DNA of 33,274 bases, taken from an uncultured Massilia sp. (GTDB taxonomy: Bacteria > Pseudomonadota > Gammaproteobacteria > Burkholderiales > Burkholderiaceae_D). The DNA lies in assembly GCA_913777025.1 (NCBI GenBank), contig CAJYQM010000060.1, positions 1 through 33,274 of the forward strand, read 5' to 3'. Below, in pieces: positions 5,761-23,195 of the stretch. The stretch's first letter is position 1; each line of letters opens with the position of its first letter. Below the pieces are notes generated by a model. It saw nothing but the letters and a program-made list of their open reading frames with translations, was not told where the DNA came from and made no database searches. A program made the position numbers and the translations under genes.

Positions 5761-5995
5761 CGCGGAATGCGCCACCCAGGTGCATCATGCTCATCAAATA
5801 CAGCATGCCGTCGAAGTAGCGCTGCTCGCCGGCCGGCACCGGCGTTTCCCACCGCGCCTTGAGGAAGGCGTCGGGCAGCTGGCCCGGCGTTGCCGCCATG
5901 GCGCAGACCGCCGCCGCGGCCAGCATGTCGGTGCGATAGGCGACCTTGCCGTCGTCCTGCGCGCTTTCCCACTCCTCGCACATAGGCGTTGTCAT
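5738..5995 (-). CDS. Small hypothetical protein (85 aa)
   Basis: I do not recognise a family. The 85-residue product begins MTTPMCEEWESAQ and contains an Ala-rich helix (about 22-35), a central LPDAFLKARWETP segment and a Met-rich stretch FDGMLYLMSMMHLGG (about 62-76). It has no signal peptide or clear membrane span. Codon choice is strongly GC-ending like the neighbouring real genes, which supports coding. The ATG at 5995 is preferred; upstream in-frame codons run into the palindrome at 6003-6018 and the erpA terminator. It lies downstream of erpA on the same strand but beyond that terminator, so it probably has its own promoter. Its 3' end overlaps the GlxA-type gene by 23 bp. Confidence 0.65.
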   Translation of the reverse strand: MTTPMCEEWESAQDDGKVAYRTDMLAAAAVCAMAATPGQLPDAFLKARWETPVPAGEQRYFDGMLYLMSMMHLGGAFRVIDQAQP

Positions 5996-14839: not shown

Positions 14840-15570
<731 letters not shown>

Positions 15571-15574
<4 letters not shown>

Positions 15575-16785
15575 AGCCCGCACCCCGCAGCTCCACGCAT
15601 CACAAGTCGAAATTCCTCGTGGTCTTCCTGAAGGAATTCCGGGAAACCCTGCGCGACAAGCGCGCCGTCGGCATGCTCGCGATGTTCACGCTGATGTACC
15701 CGATCATGTTCGGCGTCATCCTGCACCAGACCATCGAGCGCGCCACCCGCACCGAGCGCGAGGGCATCGAACTGGCCGTGATCGGCGCGGCCCAGGCGCC
15801 GACCCTGATGTCCCAGCTCAAGCAGAAGAACATCACCGTGCAGGACCTGGCGCCGTCCGGCGAGGACGCGATCGCCGAGCTGCTGCGATCCAAGAAAGTG
15901 GCGGCGGTGCTGCGCCTGCCCGAGAAATTCACCGAGAACTACCAGGCCATGCGCCCGGCCCAGGTCGAGCTGTGGTTCGATTCGGCCGCCGACGAGGACC
16001 GGCGCCGGCGCGACGTCGAGGACGTGCTCAAGGCCTACAACGCCAACATCGCCAGCGCGCGCCTGCTGGCGCACGGGGTGTCGCCGGCGACGCTGTCGCC
16101 GATCGACTTGCAGCGCTACGACACCGGCACCAACGCCGCGCGTTCGGCCGGCATGATCGGCAGCCTGCTCGGCTTCCTGTTCTTCCCCGCCTTCATGTGC
16201 GGCATGGCGGCAGCGGTCGACAGCACCGCCGGCGAACGCGAACGGCGCTCGCTCGAGGTGCTGATGGCGCAGCCGATCCGGACCTGGGAACTGGTCGGCG
16301 GCAAATGGCTGGCCGCCGGCCTGCTGTCCGTGATCGGCATCACGCTGGAGCTGGTCCTGGCCCACATCGGCCTGTCCTGGCTGCCGCTTGAGGAAATCGG
16401 CATGACCTGGCGCATGAACTGGGGCGACCTGGCCCTGCTGTGCCTGGTCTCGGTGCCGCTGTCGCTGTTCGCGGCCAGCGTGCAGATCGCGGTGGCGATG
16501 AACGCCAAGTCGTTCAAGGAAGCGCAGAGCGTGCTCTCCTTCATCCTGCTCGTGCCGATGCTGCCGGGGCTGGCGGTGTCGATGCTCGAGCTGAAGACGG
16601 CGACCTGGATGTACGCGGTGCCGATGCTGTCGAACCAGACCCTGATGCGCGAGATCGCCAAGGGCGGCGAACTGGGCGCGCTGCCCTTCGTGCTGACCTT
16701 CGCCTGCTCGGCCGTCGGCGCGCTGGCGCTGGTGGTGTTCTCGAGCTGGCGCATGAAGAGCGAGCGCTACGTGCTGGCGGTCTGA
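15571..16785 (+). CDS. ABC-2 type permease (NatB type)
   Basis: Membrane subunit of 404 residues. A first transmembrane helix (about 32-52) is followed by a large soluble domain (about 55-185), then about five helices (about 190-400), the layout of NatB/YhaP-like ABC-2 permeases. The motif TAGERERRSLEVLMAQPI in the cytoplasmic loop is typical for coupling with the ATPase. Its start overlaps the ATPase stop. Together with the secreted peptidase encoded first in the operon, it forms an export module whose cargo is unknown. A sodium role is possible by family name but is not shown by the sequence. Confidence 0.92.
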
Positions 16786-18008: not shown

Positions 18009-18014
18009 ATTATA
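18009..18014 (-). promoter_or_regulatory. Possible -10 element of coq7
   Basis: The minus strand reads TATAAT, 31 bp upstream of the coq7 start and overlapping the stop codon of the upstream gene. The -35 region (ACTGGC) is poor, so this is a weak call; read-through from the upstream gene is an alternative. Confidence 0.35.
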
Positions 18015-18453
18015 TGCTCTTCCTCTTCTCCAGCCAGTCCTGCACCGGGCCCGTCACTTCCAGCTTCGAGATGTTCTTCGCCACCCCCAGGTTCAGTTCC
18101 AGCAGGAAGGGAATCGATTCGGCCGGCACGTCGGTGCAGGTCTCGGCGAACAGCGCCATGAAGCGCTCCGATTCCAGCACCGCCAGCACCCCTTGCCCGC
18201 TCATGAACTGCAGAACGCTGGTGATCGAATGGCCGCCGCCGATGCTGTGGTAGATGAAGCGGTTGTAGTCGCCGTCCACCGCCTTGAAGTCGATGGCGTC
18301 CTTGGTCATCAGCCCGGCCAGGTAATGCAGGCCGACGGCGACGCGGAACCAGTCCGTGGCTTCGGCGCGGGTGCGCCCCTGGCGCGTGAGGGCCAGGATC
18401 CTGTCCCGGGTAGCGGTTTCCATGATCGTCGTGTCCATGCTGCGATTATCCAT
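18010..18453 (-). CDS. Hypothetical protein (147 aa), upstream of coq7
   Basis: I do not recognise a family. The product begins MDNRSMDTTIMETATRD and appears soluble and alpha-helical. It has a basic TRQGRTRAEATDWF segment (about 24-37), a hydrophobic AVGLHYLAGLM (about 40-50), then GGGHSITSVLQFMSGQGV (about 75-92), and a C-terminal tail EKRKSI. The start is uncertain. The ATG at 18453 has GAGG 11 nt upstream; ATGs at 18438 and 18423 are also possible. The frame extends further upstream to 18630 but that portion has unlike codon use. It is followed at 33 bp by coq7 on the same strand, so co-transcription is possible. Confidence 0.75.
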   Translation of the reverse strand: MDNRSMDTTIMETATRDRILALTRQGRTRAEATDWFRVAVGLHYLAGLMTKDAIDFKAVDGDYNRFIYHSIGGGHSITSVLQFMSGQGVLAVLESERFMALFAETCTDVPAESIPFLLELNLGVAKNISKLEVTGPVQDWLEKRKSI

Positions 18454-18679
18454 ATTTCCACGGACCTCGGCACGAATGTTGACAAAGTAGACAGAAAGTT
18501 TCCACGGGCGTATGCTCAGGTGCTGATTGTCCATCGCCCCGGCCCCGCTTTTTTGCACTCCAGGCGCTTGAAAATGCGGTGTATCGCATTGGCACTGCCA
18601 TGGGTGCTCCTTTTTAATACAATGCAACAATCATAAAATACGCGCATTCTCACGCGTGCCTTGGTTACCAGGAGTGTTC

Positions 18680-19573
18680 ATGGAATTACGCATCCGCAAT
18701 CTGTCCAAGACCTACGCCAATGGCGTGGTCGCACTGGACGGGGTCACGCTGCACATCCCGACCGGGATGTTCGGCCTGCTGGGGCCGAACGGCGCCGGCA
18801 AGTCGACCCTGATGCGTATCCTGGCCACGCTGCAGGAATGCGACAGCGGCTCGGTGTTCCTGGAAGACATCGACGTGCTCGACGAGAAGGACGCCGTGCG
18901 CCGCTTGCTCGGCTACCTGCCGCAGGACTTCGGCGTCTACCCGAAAGTGACGGCTTACGAATTGCTGGACCACTTCGCGCAGTTGAAGGGCCTGTCGCAG
19001 CGCGGCCGCCGGCGCGAAGTCGTCGACGGCCTGCTCCAGCAAACCAACCTGTTCGAGGTGCGCAACCAGAAGCTCGGCACGTTTTCGGGCGGCATGCGCC
19101 AGCGCTTCGGCATCGCCCAGGCGCTGCTGGGCGACCCGCAGCTGATCATCGTCGACGAGCCGACCGCCGGCCTCGACCCGCAGGAACGGGTGCGCTTCCA
19201 CAACCTGCTGTCCGACATCGGCGATGAAAAAACGGTGATCCTGTCGACCCACATCGTGTCCGACGTGGCCGACCTGTGCGCCAACATGGCGATCATCAAC
19301 AAGGGCCACGTGCTGCTGTGCGGCGAGCCGGCGCGCCTGATCGAAGGCATCGAAGGCCGCATCTGGGCACGCTTCATCACCAAGCAGGAACTGCCGATGT
19401 TCCAGCGCCGCCACACGGTCATCTCGACCCGCCTGCTGAGCGGCCAGCCGCTGGTCCACGTGTACGCCGAGCGCGACCCTGGCGACGGTTTCGAACCCAT
19501 CCATCCCACCCTCGAGGACGTGTACTTCGCCACCATCGCCGGCCGCCACAACGCCGCGTCCGGGAATTGCTGA
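18680..19573 (+). CDS. ABC transporter ATP-binding protein, partner of the permease-M1 fusion
   Basis: A 297-residue ATPase. Walker [10 protein letters not shown] (35-43), signature FSGGM (135-139), Walker B LIIVDE (155-160) and switch His191 are present. The last 75 residues form a C-terminal extension ending in HPTLEDVYF, typical of ABC-2 exporters. AGGAG lies 5 nt before the ATG at 18680. Possible -10 elements TACAAT (18618-18623) and TAAAAT (18634-18639) lie upstream, neither with a convincing -35. The fusion permease begins 4 bp after its stop, so the pair forms one transporter. Confidence 0.93.
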
Positions 19574-19577
19574 GGCC

Positions 19578-22500
19578 ATGCGCGCACTGCTCGCCATCGC
19601 CGGGTTCGAAGCGCGCCAGCGCCTCAAGCTGCTGTCGACCTGGATTTATTTCTTCGCCTTCCTGGCAATGGCCATGCTGTGGGTCGCGGCCGCCGGCGGC
19701 GCCATGCGCGACATCAGCATCTCGTTCGGCGGCCGGGTCCTGATCAACGCGCCGCGCCAGATCGCGCTCGGCACCGCCGTCCTGGGCTGCCTGGGCGTGG
19801 TGGTGGCCGCGGCGCTGGTGGGGCGCTCGGTGCAGCAGGACTTCGAATACGAGATGCACCACTTCTTCTTCAGCGCCCCGATCCGCAAGTACGCCTACGT
19901 GTTCGGGCGCTTCCTCGGCGCGCTGGCGACGCTGGCCGTGATCTACGCCTCGATCCCGCTCGGGAACCTGCTGGGCGCCCTGCTGCCCGGGATCGACCCG
20001 GCCCGGCTCGGGCCGTTCTCGGCCGCCGGCTACCTGGGGCCGTATTTCACGACGCTGCTGCCCAACCTGTTCATCTTCGGCGCCCTGTTCTTCATGCTGG
20101 CGGCCCTGAGCCGGCGCATGCTGCCGGTGTATGTGTCGAGCGTGGTCATGATGATCGGCTACATCGTGGCGCCCTCGCTGGCGCGCGACCTCGACTACAA
20201 GACCCTGGCCGCGCTGATGGACCCGTTCGGCACCACGGCCCTGATCCGCCTGACCGAATACTGGAGCCTGGCCGAGCGCAATGCCAGCCAGATCCCGCTC
20301 GAGGGCGTGTACCTCGTCAACCGCGGCATCTGGCTGGGGTTCGCCGTGGTCGTGCTGCTGCTCGGCTACTGGCGCTTCACCTTCGTGGCGACGCCCGGCG
20401 GGCGGCGCCATGCGCGGCCGGACGGCGAATCGGCAGCCGCCGCACCGGCCGCGGCAAGCGCCGTGCCCTCGCTGTCCTTGCCGGCACAGGCCGCGCCGGA
20501 CGCGCGCGAACGGCCGGACTTTGCCGCGCGCAGCCTGGCGGCCCTGCTGGCCAGGTCGAGCTGGATGAATTTCCGCGAATCGGTCAAGAACGTCTACTTC
20601 GCCGTGATCGCGCTGGCCGGCGTGCTGCTGCTGGTGGTCAGCGCGCTCGATCTCGGCGCCGTGTACGGCACCAAAACCTATCCGCTGACCTACATGGTGC
20701 TGGAGCTGATCCGCGACGTGTTCGTCCTGTTCATCCTGATCGTCACCACGCTGTACGCGGGCGAGATGGTATGGCGCGAGCGCGAGGCGCGCATGGGCCT
20801 GATGATGGATGCGCTGCCGGTGCCGAGCTGGCTGCCGCTGGCGGCCAAGACCATCGCGCTGGTCGGGCTGCAGGCGCTGCTGCTGGTGCTGGCCATGCTG
20901 TGCGGGATGCTGATCCAGCTGTTCCACGGCTACCTGGCGCTGGAGCCGGGGCTGTACCTGACGACCCTGTTCGGGGTCCTGCTGCCGAACTACGTCCTGC
21001 TGGCCGCGCTGGCGATCTCGGTCCACGCCATCGTCAACCACAAGTACCTGGCCAACTTCCTGCTGGTGCTGTATTGGGTGGCCGCCGTCACCCTGACCAA
21101 CCTCGGCCTGGGCCACCCGCTGCTGCTGTACGGGATCCTGCCCGACATCACCTATTCGGCGATGAACGGCTGGGGCCACTACCTGGCGCGCCACAACGCT
21201 CTGCTGGCCTACTGGAGCGGCGCGGCCCTGGTCCTGCTGACGCTGGCCCTGGTGCTGTGGCCGCGCGGCGTGAGCGACCGCTTCAAGGAGCGCGTGCGCC
21301 TGGGCCAACGGCGCCTGGTGCCCGGCGTGCTGGCCGCCTTCGGCATCGGGGTCCTGCTGTTCGCCGGCAGCGGCGGCCTGCTGTGGTACAACATGAGCTA
21401 CCTGGGCGGCTACCAGACCGATTGGCACAAGGACAAGATCAGCGCCGAGTACGAGCTGCGCTACCGGCGCCTCGCCAGGCTGCCGCAGCCGCGCGTGAGC
21501 GACGTGCGCCTGCAGGTCGACATCCTGCCCGAGACGCGCACGCTCAAGGTGCACGGCCTGTATCAACTGGAGAACCGCAGCGGCCAGCCGCTCCGCGACA
21601 TCGTGCTGGTCCAGCAGCCGGGCCCGAAACTCGTGCCGCGCCTGTCGCAGCCGGCGCGCCTCGTGCTGGCCGACCCCGGGCGCGGCGTGTGGCGCTACCA
21701 GCTGTCCACGCCGCTGCCGCCGGGCGCCAGGATGGGCCTGGAATTCGATCTCGAAGATGCGCCCGGCGGCATCTTCAAACTGGGCCGCGACACCGCGGTG
21801 GTCGGCAACGGCACCTTTTTCACCAACGCCAGCCTGCCGCGCATCGGCTACCAGCCGGCGATGGAACTGCAGGACGACCGCGACCGCCGCCGCCACGGCC
21901 TGGGCGCGAAGACGCCGATAGCCGCGCGCGACGACGCGCTGGCGCCGGCCAACAACTACCTCGCCAACGACGCCGACTGGATCAATTTCGACGCCGTGGT
22001 CAGCACCAGCGCGGACCAGACCGTGGTCGCGCCGGGCACGTTGACCCGGGAATGGATGGACAAGGGACGGCGCTTCTTCCACTTCCGGATGGACAAGCCG
22101 ATCCTCAACTTCTATACCGTGCAGTCGGCACGCTACGAAGTGCGGCACGACCGCTGGCAGGACGTGACCATCGACGTCTACTACCACCCGGGCCACGAGG
22201 TCAACGTCGACCGCATGATCCGCGGCGCCAAGGCCGCGCTGGCCTATGGCTCGAAGCACTTCAGCCCCTACCAGAACCGCGACCTGCGCATCGCGGAGTT
22301 CCCGCGCTACGAGAGCCTGGCGATGTCGGCGCCGGGCACCATTCCGTTCTCGGAAAGCGCCGGCTTCATCGCCAAGGTCGATCCGGACGGGCCCAAGGAC
22401 ATCGACTATCCGTATTTCGTCAGCGCGCACGAGGTCGGGCACCAGTGGTGGGGGCACCAGATGGTCGGCGCCGACAGCCGCGGCGCCACCGTGCTGTCGG

Positions 22501-23195
22501 AAAGCCTGGCCCAGTACACGGCCCTGATGGCGATGAAGAACACGACCGGTTCCAGCAAGATGCGGCGCTTCCTGCGCTACGACCTGGAGCGTTACCTGAT
22601 GGGCCGCGCGACCGAGAACCGCAGGGAACTGCCGCTGGCGCAGAACGAGAACCAGGCCTACATCCACTACGACAAGGGCAGCATGGCGATGTACCTGCTG
22701 CAGGACCTGCTGGGCGAAGCCGTGGTCGACGAGGTGCTGCACGACCTGCTGGTCGATCACGCCTTCAGCGGGCCGCCCTACCCGACCGTCTCGGCGCTCG
22801 TCGAACGCCTGCGCGCGGTCACGCCGGCCGACAAGGCCTACCTGATCGACGACCTGTTCGAATCCATCGTCCTGTACGAGAACCGCGCCGACGCCGCCAG
22901 CGCGCGCCGCCTGCCGGACGGCCGTTACGAAGTCACGATCCGCGCCAGCGCCGGCAAGGTGCGCACCGGCGCGGCGGGCGAGGAAAAGCACGTGCCGCTG
23001 GCCGATTTCATCGAATTCGGCGTCGACGACGACGACGGCAACCCGCTGGCACGCGAGCGGCGCCGGGTGACGGCAGCAGCGCAGGTGGTGACGCTGGTGG
23101 TCGGCGGCCGCCCTGCGCGCGCGGGCATCGACCCCGACAACAAGCTGATCGACAGGAAGCCGACAGACAACATGCTGCCTGTCGACATGCCGTAG
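19578..23195 (+). CDS. ABC-2 permease fused to M1-family aminopeptidase domain
   Basis: A 1205-residue fusion. Residues 1-270 contain about six transmembrane helices. An Ala/Pro-rich linker follows (about 275-325), then a second permease half of about six helices (335-560). One more helix (about 579-602) precedes a long soluble part (605-1205). That part is a gluzincin aminopeptidase domain: HEVGHQWW (zinc ligands His951 and His955, catalytic Glu952), third ligand Glu975 in LSESLAQY, and the likely transition-state Tyr1031 in [11 protein letters not shown]. The exopeptidase loop reads [12 protein letters not shown] in place of GAMEN, as in other ABC-linked M1 proteins. Thirteen helices with a cytoplasmic N-terminus would put the peptidase in the periplasm. 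It follows its ATPase by 4 bp. The substrate is unknown. Confidence 0.93.

Follow-up and report, generated by a model that had tools for sequence, protein, structure and literature searches.

Does a single chain that joins an ABC-2 permease to an M1-fold metallopeptidase act as a pump that hands its substrate to a protease of its own, and if so, what kind of cut would that protease make? The question is raised by a gene in the window, by which we mean the whole stretch of 33,274 nucleotides analysed here, taken from an uncultured Massilia sp. whose assembled genome (4.73 Mb, 542 contigs) is 83.5% complete. The fusion gene (19578-23195, + strand) begins with an ATG and encodes 1205 residues with no internal stop, and directly upstream lies a gene for an ABC ATPase of 297 residues (18680-19573, + strand), which its open reading frame, its motifs and its pairing in related loci mark as a dedicated partner. 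The likely start of the ATPase is the ATG at 18680, with a ribosome-binding-like AGGAG (18670-18674) just 5′ of it; its TGA ends at 19573, leaving a spacer of 4 bases before the fusion ATG, and the Walker A, Q-loop, signature, Walker B and H-loop motifs are all complete. Two features of ABC-2 exporters, relatives among ABC-2 permeases and a cognate ATPase with all of its motifs, are present, and the system is in this respect a putative exporter. A sequence-only reading of this DNA had described one uninterrupted 1205-residue chain whose partner ATPase gene ends 4 bp upstream, and the frames bear this out. In the PDB, the best matches of the partner ATPase are ABCA7 and ABCA1 (E about 1e-59). 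The window also holds a second ABC-2 system (14840-16785, + strand; a 244-residue ATPase and a 404-residue permease). Because the window's other ATPase, our control, likewise matches the ABCA family (best match ABCA3), these matches were not used as evidence for lipid export.

The same architecture recurs in homologues from many genomes, and an origin of the fusion by chance or artefact was therefore rejected. The closest named relatives of the fusion gene, with up to 75% identity, come from Massilia and allied Oxalobacteraceae: whole-length homologues of 56-75% identity were found in 23 named genome records, 22 of which are Massilia (17), Pseudoduganella (2) and, for the rest, Telluria, Rugamonas or Oxalobacteraceae, the last one being a Pseudomonadota MAG. 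In three genome samples that overlap one another, and with the source genome counted in each, the fusion gene is present in 46 of 145 genomes of the family sample and 10 of 370 of the class sample (both E ≤ 1e-30) and in 25 of 299 of the phylum sample (E ≤ 1e-20). Relatives also stand on 13 plasmid records (Pseudoalteromonas 5, Hymenobacter 4, and Gemmatirosa, Sphingomonas, Granulicella and Spirosoma), genera that to our knowledge all belong to diderm groups, and the family spans at least three phyla, with relatives from Pseudomonadota, Bacteroidota and Acidobacteriota. A same-strand ATPase lies directly upstream in 105 of the 107 related loci (five genes are counted twice among these), the exceptions being L018, which is cut by a contig end, and L059, where the ATPase is in two open reading frames. 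In L059, on a Granulicella plasmid, these are two short open frames upstream of position 5974, and the fusion is whole. The two parts of the fusion also stay together when searched for separately, as all 16 matches of the permease part (199 genomes, E ≤ 1e-5, own included) lie in frames of at least 1143 residues, and 14 of the 15 matches of the M1 part (150 genomes, E ≤ 1e-8, own included) lie in frames of at least 1094 residues, the fifteenth being the genome's own PepN-like protein. Outside these half-part searches, the fusion is split into two open frames by a frame change or an in-frame stop in three relatives (L057, L067 and L086, namely one Sphingomonas plasmid and two other genomes), by decay or sequencing error.

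The N-terminal part of the chain is a twin ABC-2 permease. Its first half, residues 1-270 (19578-20387, + strand), has six predicted helices according to hydropathy, hhalign and Pfam, and its second half, residues 310-584 (20505-21329, + strand), has six predicted helices and a basic end according to the same methods and the structure model. An hhalign comparison shows the two halves to be homologous (probability 97.4%, E 1.5e-11, 248 columns), and among 29 permease parts from the family ABC2_membrane_3 and ABC2_membrane_4 are each matched by 23 at E ≤ 0.01; the window protein's own Pfam ABC-2 match stays under the cutoff (20.8 vs 27 bits). When hydropathy is averaged over 91 sequences, twelve peaks appear, or 13 segments in a 6 + 6 + 1 arrangement if the 40-residue stretch 157-196 is counted as two helices. 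That stretch is also two helices in the full-length structure model, whose helices agree with hydropathy at a mean pLDDT of 66.8 and which is unreliable in its first half (pLDDT < 50 over model residues 1-243) and too poor for use there. The thirteenth helix, residues 585-605 (21330-21392, + strand; hydropathy and model), is preceded by a loop (563-584) that, with helix limits set by hand as for all our loop counts, carries 7 Lys/Arg and 2 Asp/Glu in the window protein and 5.5 and 1.2 in the family average. A loop this basic would be cytoplasmic by the positive-inside rule, and the peptidase domain should therefore lie on the periplasmic side. By the same kind of count the rule is less clear-cut elsewhere: the loops after helices 2 and 8, which are cytoplasmic in the 13-helix scheme, are about neutral and acidic, respectively, and residues 606-640, directly beyond helix 13, are basic too (7 basic to 4 acidic residues in the window protein; 5.8 to 4.7 on average). 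The twin ABC-2 permease and the approximately 13 helices of the earlier description are thereby supported, and its placement of the peptidase outside the inner membrane stands as a prediction.

The explanation that we favour for this architecture, with a probability of about one half, is a two-gene ABC machine that presents an exported or membrane substrate to its own periplasmic metallopeptidase, the cut being probably atypical. Two copies of the ATPase would bind the cytoplasmic loops of one fusion chain, which supplies both ABC-2 halves, and such a 2:1 complex is plausible. By way of helix 13, the M1-fold zinc metallopeptidase would be placed on the periplasmic side, next to the outer face of the pump. 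ATP-driven movement would bring a peptide-like or lipopeptide-like substrate, exported from the cytoplasm or drawn out of the inner membrane, to the active site tethered there, and that site would then cleave it.

NosY stands for the relay of energy to a periplasmic partner and PmtD for the export of amphipathic peptides, and both are solved ABC-2 permeases (of NosDFY and PmtCD) related to the permease profile of the fusion. They are in fact its only relatives in the PDB at E ≤ 1, where the profile finds five sequences, one NosY (1.8e-4) and four PmtD (about 6e-4), the latter in entries named as the phenol-soluble-modulin exporter subunit. The solved chains (276 residues for NosY, 247-266 for PmtD), each of which by helix count we take to be one permease half, have no peptidase domain, unlike the fusion. 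NosFY is thought to drive NosD, and FtsEX its hydrolases, by mechanotransmission. If the fusion works in this manner, no substrate would cross the membrane, and ATP hydrolysis would instead act through the ABC-2 helices on the periplasmic protease, opening, closing or positioning it. We regard this main rival as rather unlikely, even though the solved structure that the permease profile matches best is NosY, NosF is among the relatives of the partner ATPase (E 1.3e-33, PDB search) and a TCDB relative, 3.A.1.145.3, carries an annotation for multi-copper enzyme maturation (PMC3924187). Against a pure relay stands the almost equal match of PmtD, which by its name is part of a peptide exporter; conversely, the PmtD match is weak (E 6e-4 vs the better 1.8e-4 for NosY), and this counts against the export that we favour.

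Beyond helix 13, the chain has the fold of an M1 peptidase. A structure model of residues 605-1205 (pLDDT 80.4) matches ERAP1, IRAP and PepN (Foldseek E down to 3.0e-24) as well as LTA4H, and Neisseria PepN aligns to it with Z 23.4 and an rmsd of 4.7 Å over 487 residues (model 18-596 to PepN 4-541 of 864). Structure model and structural matches delimit an N-terminal beta domain, residues 606-860 (21393-22157, + strand), followed by the catalytic domain, residues 861-1100 (22158-22877, + strand; Pfam Peptidase_M1 and structure), and by a C-terminal beta domain, residues 1101-1205 (22878-23192, + strand; structure), the counterpart of M1 domain III. Peptidase_M1 (PF01433) matches the window protein with E 8.7e-13 (48.8 bits for the whole chain and 46 bits for the domain, cutoff 27.7) and 34 of 35 family members at E ≤ 0.01. 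PepN of E. coli and of Neisseria can be aligned only as far as residue 541-550 of 864-866, and the helical domain IV, or lid, is absent because the fusion chain ends where the PepN alignment ends, after the domain III counterpart.

The zinc site of this domain is intact. By translation and family alignment, HEVGH at 951-955 (22428-22442, + strand) provides the zinc ligands H951 and H955 and the catalytic E952, and the family alignment adds E975 (22500-22502, + strand) as third zinc ligand and Y1031 (22668-22670, + strand) as catalytic tyrosine. Residues were counted over 98 distinct sequences including the window's own, after L001 (the own gene again), L056 (the same gene as L081) and the split, frame-changed or partial L057, L067, L086, L073 and L018 had been dropped and four further duplicates merged. 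H951, E952, H955, E975 and Y1031 are kept in 96, 97, 96, 97 and 96 of the 98, respectively, and all five together in 96. The sequence-only reading had called HEVGH, Glu975 and Tyr1031 intact, and the positions are as it gave them; to be corrected is the spacing of the third ligand, which in the window is HEXXH-X19-E rather than the X18 of the M1 consensus, X19 being present in all 96 intact copies and X18 in none.

In the 40 relatives of 30-45% identity, the catalytic subdomain is better conserved than every other segment in each of the 40 (mean 48.6% vs 30.8-34.0% elsewhere), which argues that catalysis matters and, since it makes the enzyme the best conserved part in distant relatives, also suits a relay of ATP hydrolysis to the protease. 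In the 50 closer relatives it is the first permease half that leads (72.0% vs 69.0% for the catalytic part), and this counts against the explanation that we favour. Two copies have lost their active site: in L050:7001-10534 (Massilia sp. YIM B02769), all five catalytic residues are replaced and the ATPase and a conserved permease are retained, a second copy in that genome (L115) having an intact HEXXH-X19-E, and in the distant L093 both zinc histidines and the tyrosine are gone. These losses suggest that the permease may serve a purpose independent of proteolysis, and the conserved permease beside a dead enzyme in L050 would be odd if the pump merely served the enzyme. They would also fit an M1 domain that is merely a binding or gating ectodomain, which is the least probable of the readings considered here and scarcely to be expected where 96 of 98 sequences keep all five catalytic residues with their spacing and where distant members conserve the catalytic part best.

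If the domain is a typical aminopeptidase, the GAMEN motif should carry its glutamate. According to the alignments, the counterpart of GAMEN is LAMSA at residues 914-918 (22317-22331, + strand), with S917 in place of the glutamate, and over the family this column holds Ser in 57 and Ala in 41 of the 98 sequences and Glu in none, the alignment being uncertain here in seven distant members (<30% identity) and the loop being a low-confidence region of the structure model. The genome's own PepN-like protein keeps GAMEN and aligns gaplessly with the fusion across the motif, and the phmmer and profile alignments to ERAP2 are also gapless there. Another M1-like protein of the same genome (L003, G000:C469:2067-2588) has GGMEY in the GAMEN region. 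Five relatives have a Glu at 916, one position before the GAMEN-Glu column, and Glu926, nine residues after S917, is kept in 94 of 98 and might stand in for the lost glutamate. The distance to HEXXH falls within the published GXMEN range of X22-38 (PMC2241622) for both E926 and S917. S917 is nonetheless the likelier counterpart on alignment grounds, because P909 and the next columns align gaplessly to the GAMEN protein of the genome and to ERAP2.

GXMEN is described as an M1 consensus motif in which Glu and Asn are implicated in stabilising the transition state and may contact the substrate N-terminus (PMC2241622), and the GAMEN Glu has been linked to exopeptidase activity (PMC13039773). The M1 enzymes AplP and NosP cleave within RiPP leader peptides, NosP with GAMEN retained (PMC13039773), and M1 chemistry therefore need not be exo-trimming. 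As both the GAMEN glutamate and the helical lid are missing from the fusion, an endo- or otherwise atypical cut is more likely than stepwise aminopeptidase trimming. The earlier description had named the domain an M1 aminopeptidase that would trim an exported peptide at once. The name finds no support at the exopeptidase-linked glutamate, absent from all 98 fusions and kept in the genome's PepN-like protein, so that 'aminopeptidase' is unproven for the fusion and its defining motif speaks against it; cleavage at once remains part of what we favour, as a conjecture, and trimming is weakened by the motif. Counting against an atypical enzyme are the conserved Glu926 and the NCBI aminopeptidase N model TIGR02412, which matches 32 of 35 members at E ≤ 0.01, though in the case of the window protein far below its cutoff (22.9 vs 591.2 bits).

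The GAMEN position also bears on the only published suggestion of a function that we found, namely that what is exported is an amino acid, one of its derivatives or a metabolic product of amino acids (PMC3924187). This presumes an aminopeptidase, for which the exopeptidase-linked glutamate is wanting in 98 of 98 sequences, and we hold it to be very unlikely. The proposal was made in 2013 for Myxococcus xanthus Q1D520 (TC 3.A.1.145.1), an uncharacterised protein that by its description is like the window protein, with about 1200 residues (1200 aa), an ABC-2 N-terminal part with 13 TMS and a C-terminal M1 domain (PMC3924187); that paper names the domain an aminopeptidase, which the GAMEN position of the window protein does not support. 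The window protein hence belongs to a kind of fusion already described and uncharacterised, its architecture is not new, and the sequence-only reading was right that related fusions exist without an established substrate. PMC3924187 was the sole paper on the fusion found in our literature search, which also found no transport or peptidase assay of any family member, many subscription papers lying outside its reach.

The neighbouring genes were examined for clues to the substrate. In the 76 loci with gene calls, made with our own codon-usage script rather than a standard gene finder, no neighbour other than the ATPase is constant over the family and no precursor peptide gene is constant, the latter counting against the explanation that we favour. 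The genes flanking the operon in the window are OsmC, COQ7 and a bacterial topoisomerase by Pfam, together with a frame at 18010-18630 that has no Pfam match, and this set recurs beside close relatives, as in ordinary synteny. In 12 of the 76 loci, e.g. L033, a 68-residue protein with Pfam Unstab_antitox (putative addiction module component) lies 3′ of the fusion on the same strand. A two-component pair with a LytTR-type regulator adjoins the operon in 9 of the 76 loci, a count that leaves out L064, L100 and L102, where the regulator probe matched only weakly (E 1e-6 to 2e-5). The pair is found in six of the seven most distant members (L060, L074, L075, L105, L108 and L109, where it is upstream and divergent; not in L093) and in L066, L069 and L058; in L060 both the LytTR and the histidine-kinase domain were confirmed and in L058 the LytTR regulator, in agreement with their existing annotation, and the rest were assigned by similarity to these. 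Such a pair would suit a role in detoxification or immunity, in which an antimicrobial or misinserted peptide would be extracted from the inner membrane and destroyed in the periplasm, with induction by envelope stress in some lineages. It is, however, absent from 67 of the 76 loci, the window's own flanks offer only OsmC, COQ7, the topoisomerase and the frame without a match, and we know of no resistance phenotype for these fusions; we consider this role unlikely.

Other proteins share single traits with the fusion. PepN, ERAP and IRAP share the fold of domains I-III, the HEXXH, the third-ligand glutamate and the catalytic tyrosine; the fusion differs from them in having no GAMEN glutamate, X19 instead of X18, no domain IV and a membrane tether to an ABC permease. 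Aminopeptidase O and short actinobacterial M1 proteins have, like the fusion, an M1 zinc site with GXMEN partly lost, Ap-O being without the GXMEN glutamate, and a transporter fusion is not part of their description in the accessible portion of PMC2241622. Another permease-protease fusion is known to NCBI as NF041647 (ABC permease/CPBP intramembrane protease), which differs from the M1 fusion in both its protease family and its permease. The window's other permease (15571-16785) matches the permease part of NF041647 with 214 bits, below the cutoff of 435, and ends without its protease part.

The accessible portion of PMC3924187 mentions neither the X19 spacing nor the absent lid, nor that the GAMEN glutamate is lost throughout the family. 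Since the glutamate is absent from all 98 sequences, these fusions may be misnamed by the automatic label 'M1 family aminopeptidase', and the choice of assay changes with it, as standard aminoacyl-pNA substrates could yield a false negative. Should the favoured explanation hold, ATP spent in the cytoplasm would be coupled to proteolysis in the periplasm. For the family as a whole, we would suggest, as a doubtful reading, a widespread and obligate pump-protease of two-membrane bacteria, in which an ABC-2 motor would draw peptides or lipopeptides out of the inner membrane or cytoplasm and pass them to a tethered M1-fold enzyme; with the GAMEN glutamate and the lid gone and the zinc motif changed to X19, this enzyme would have lost aminopeptidase specificity and would serve as a periplasmic endopeptidase or other hydrolase. 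On that reading it would be an ATP-powered extraction protease that faces the periplasm, a compartment devoid of ATP.
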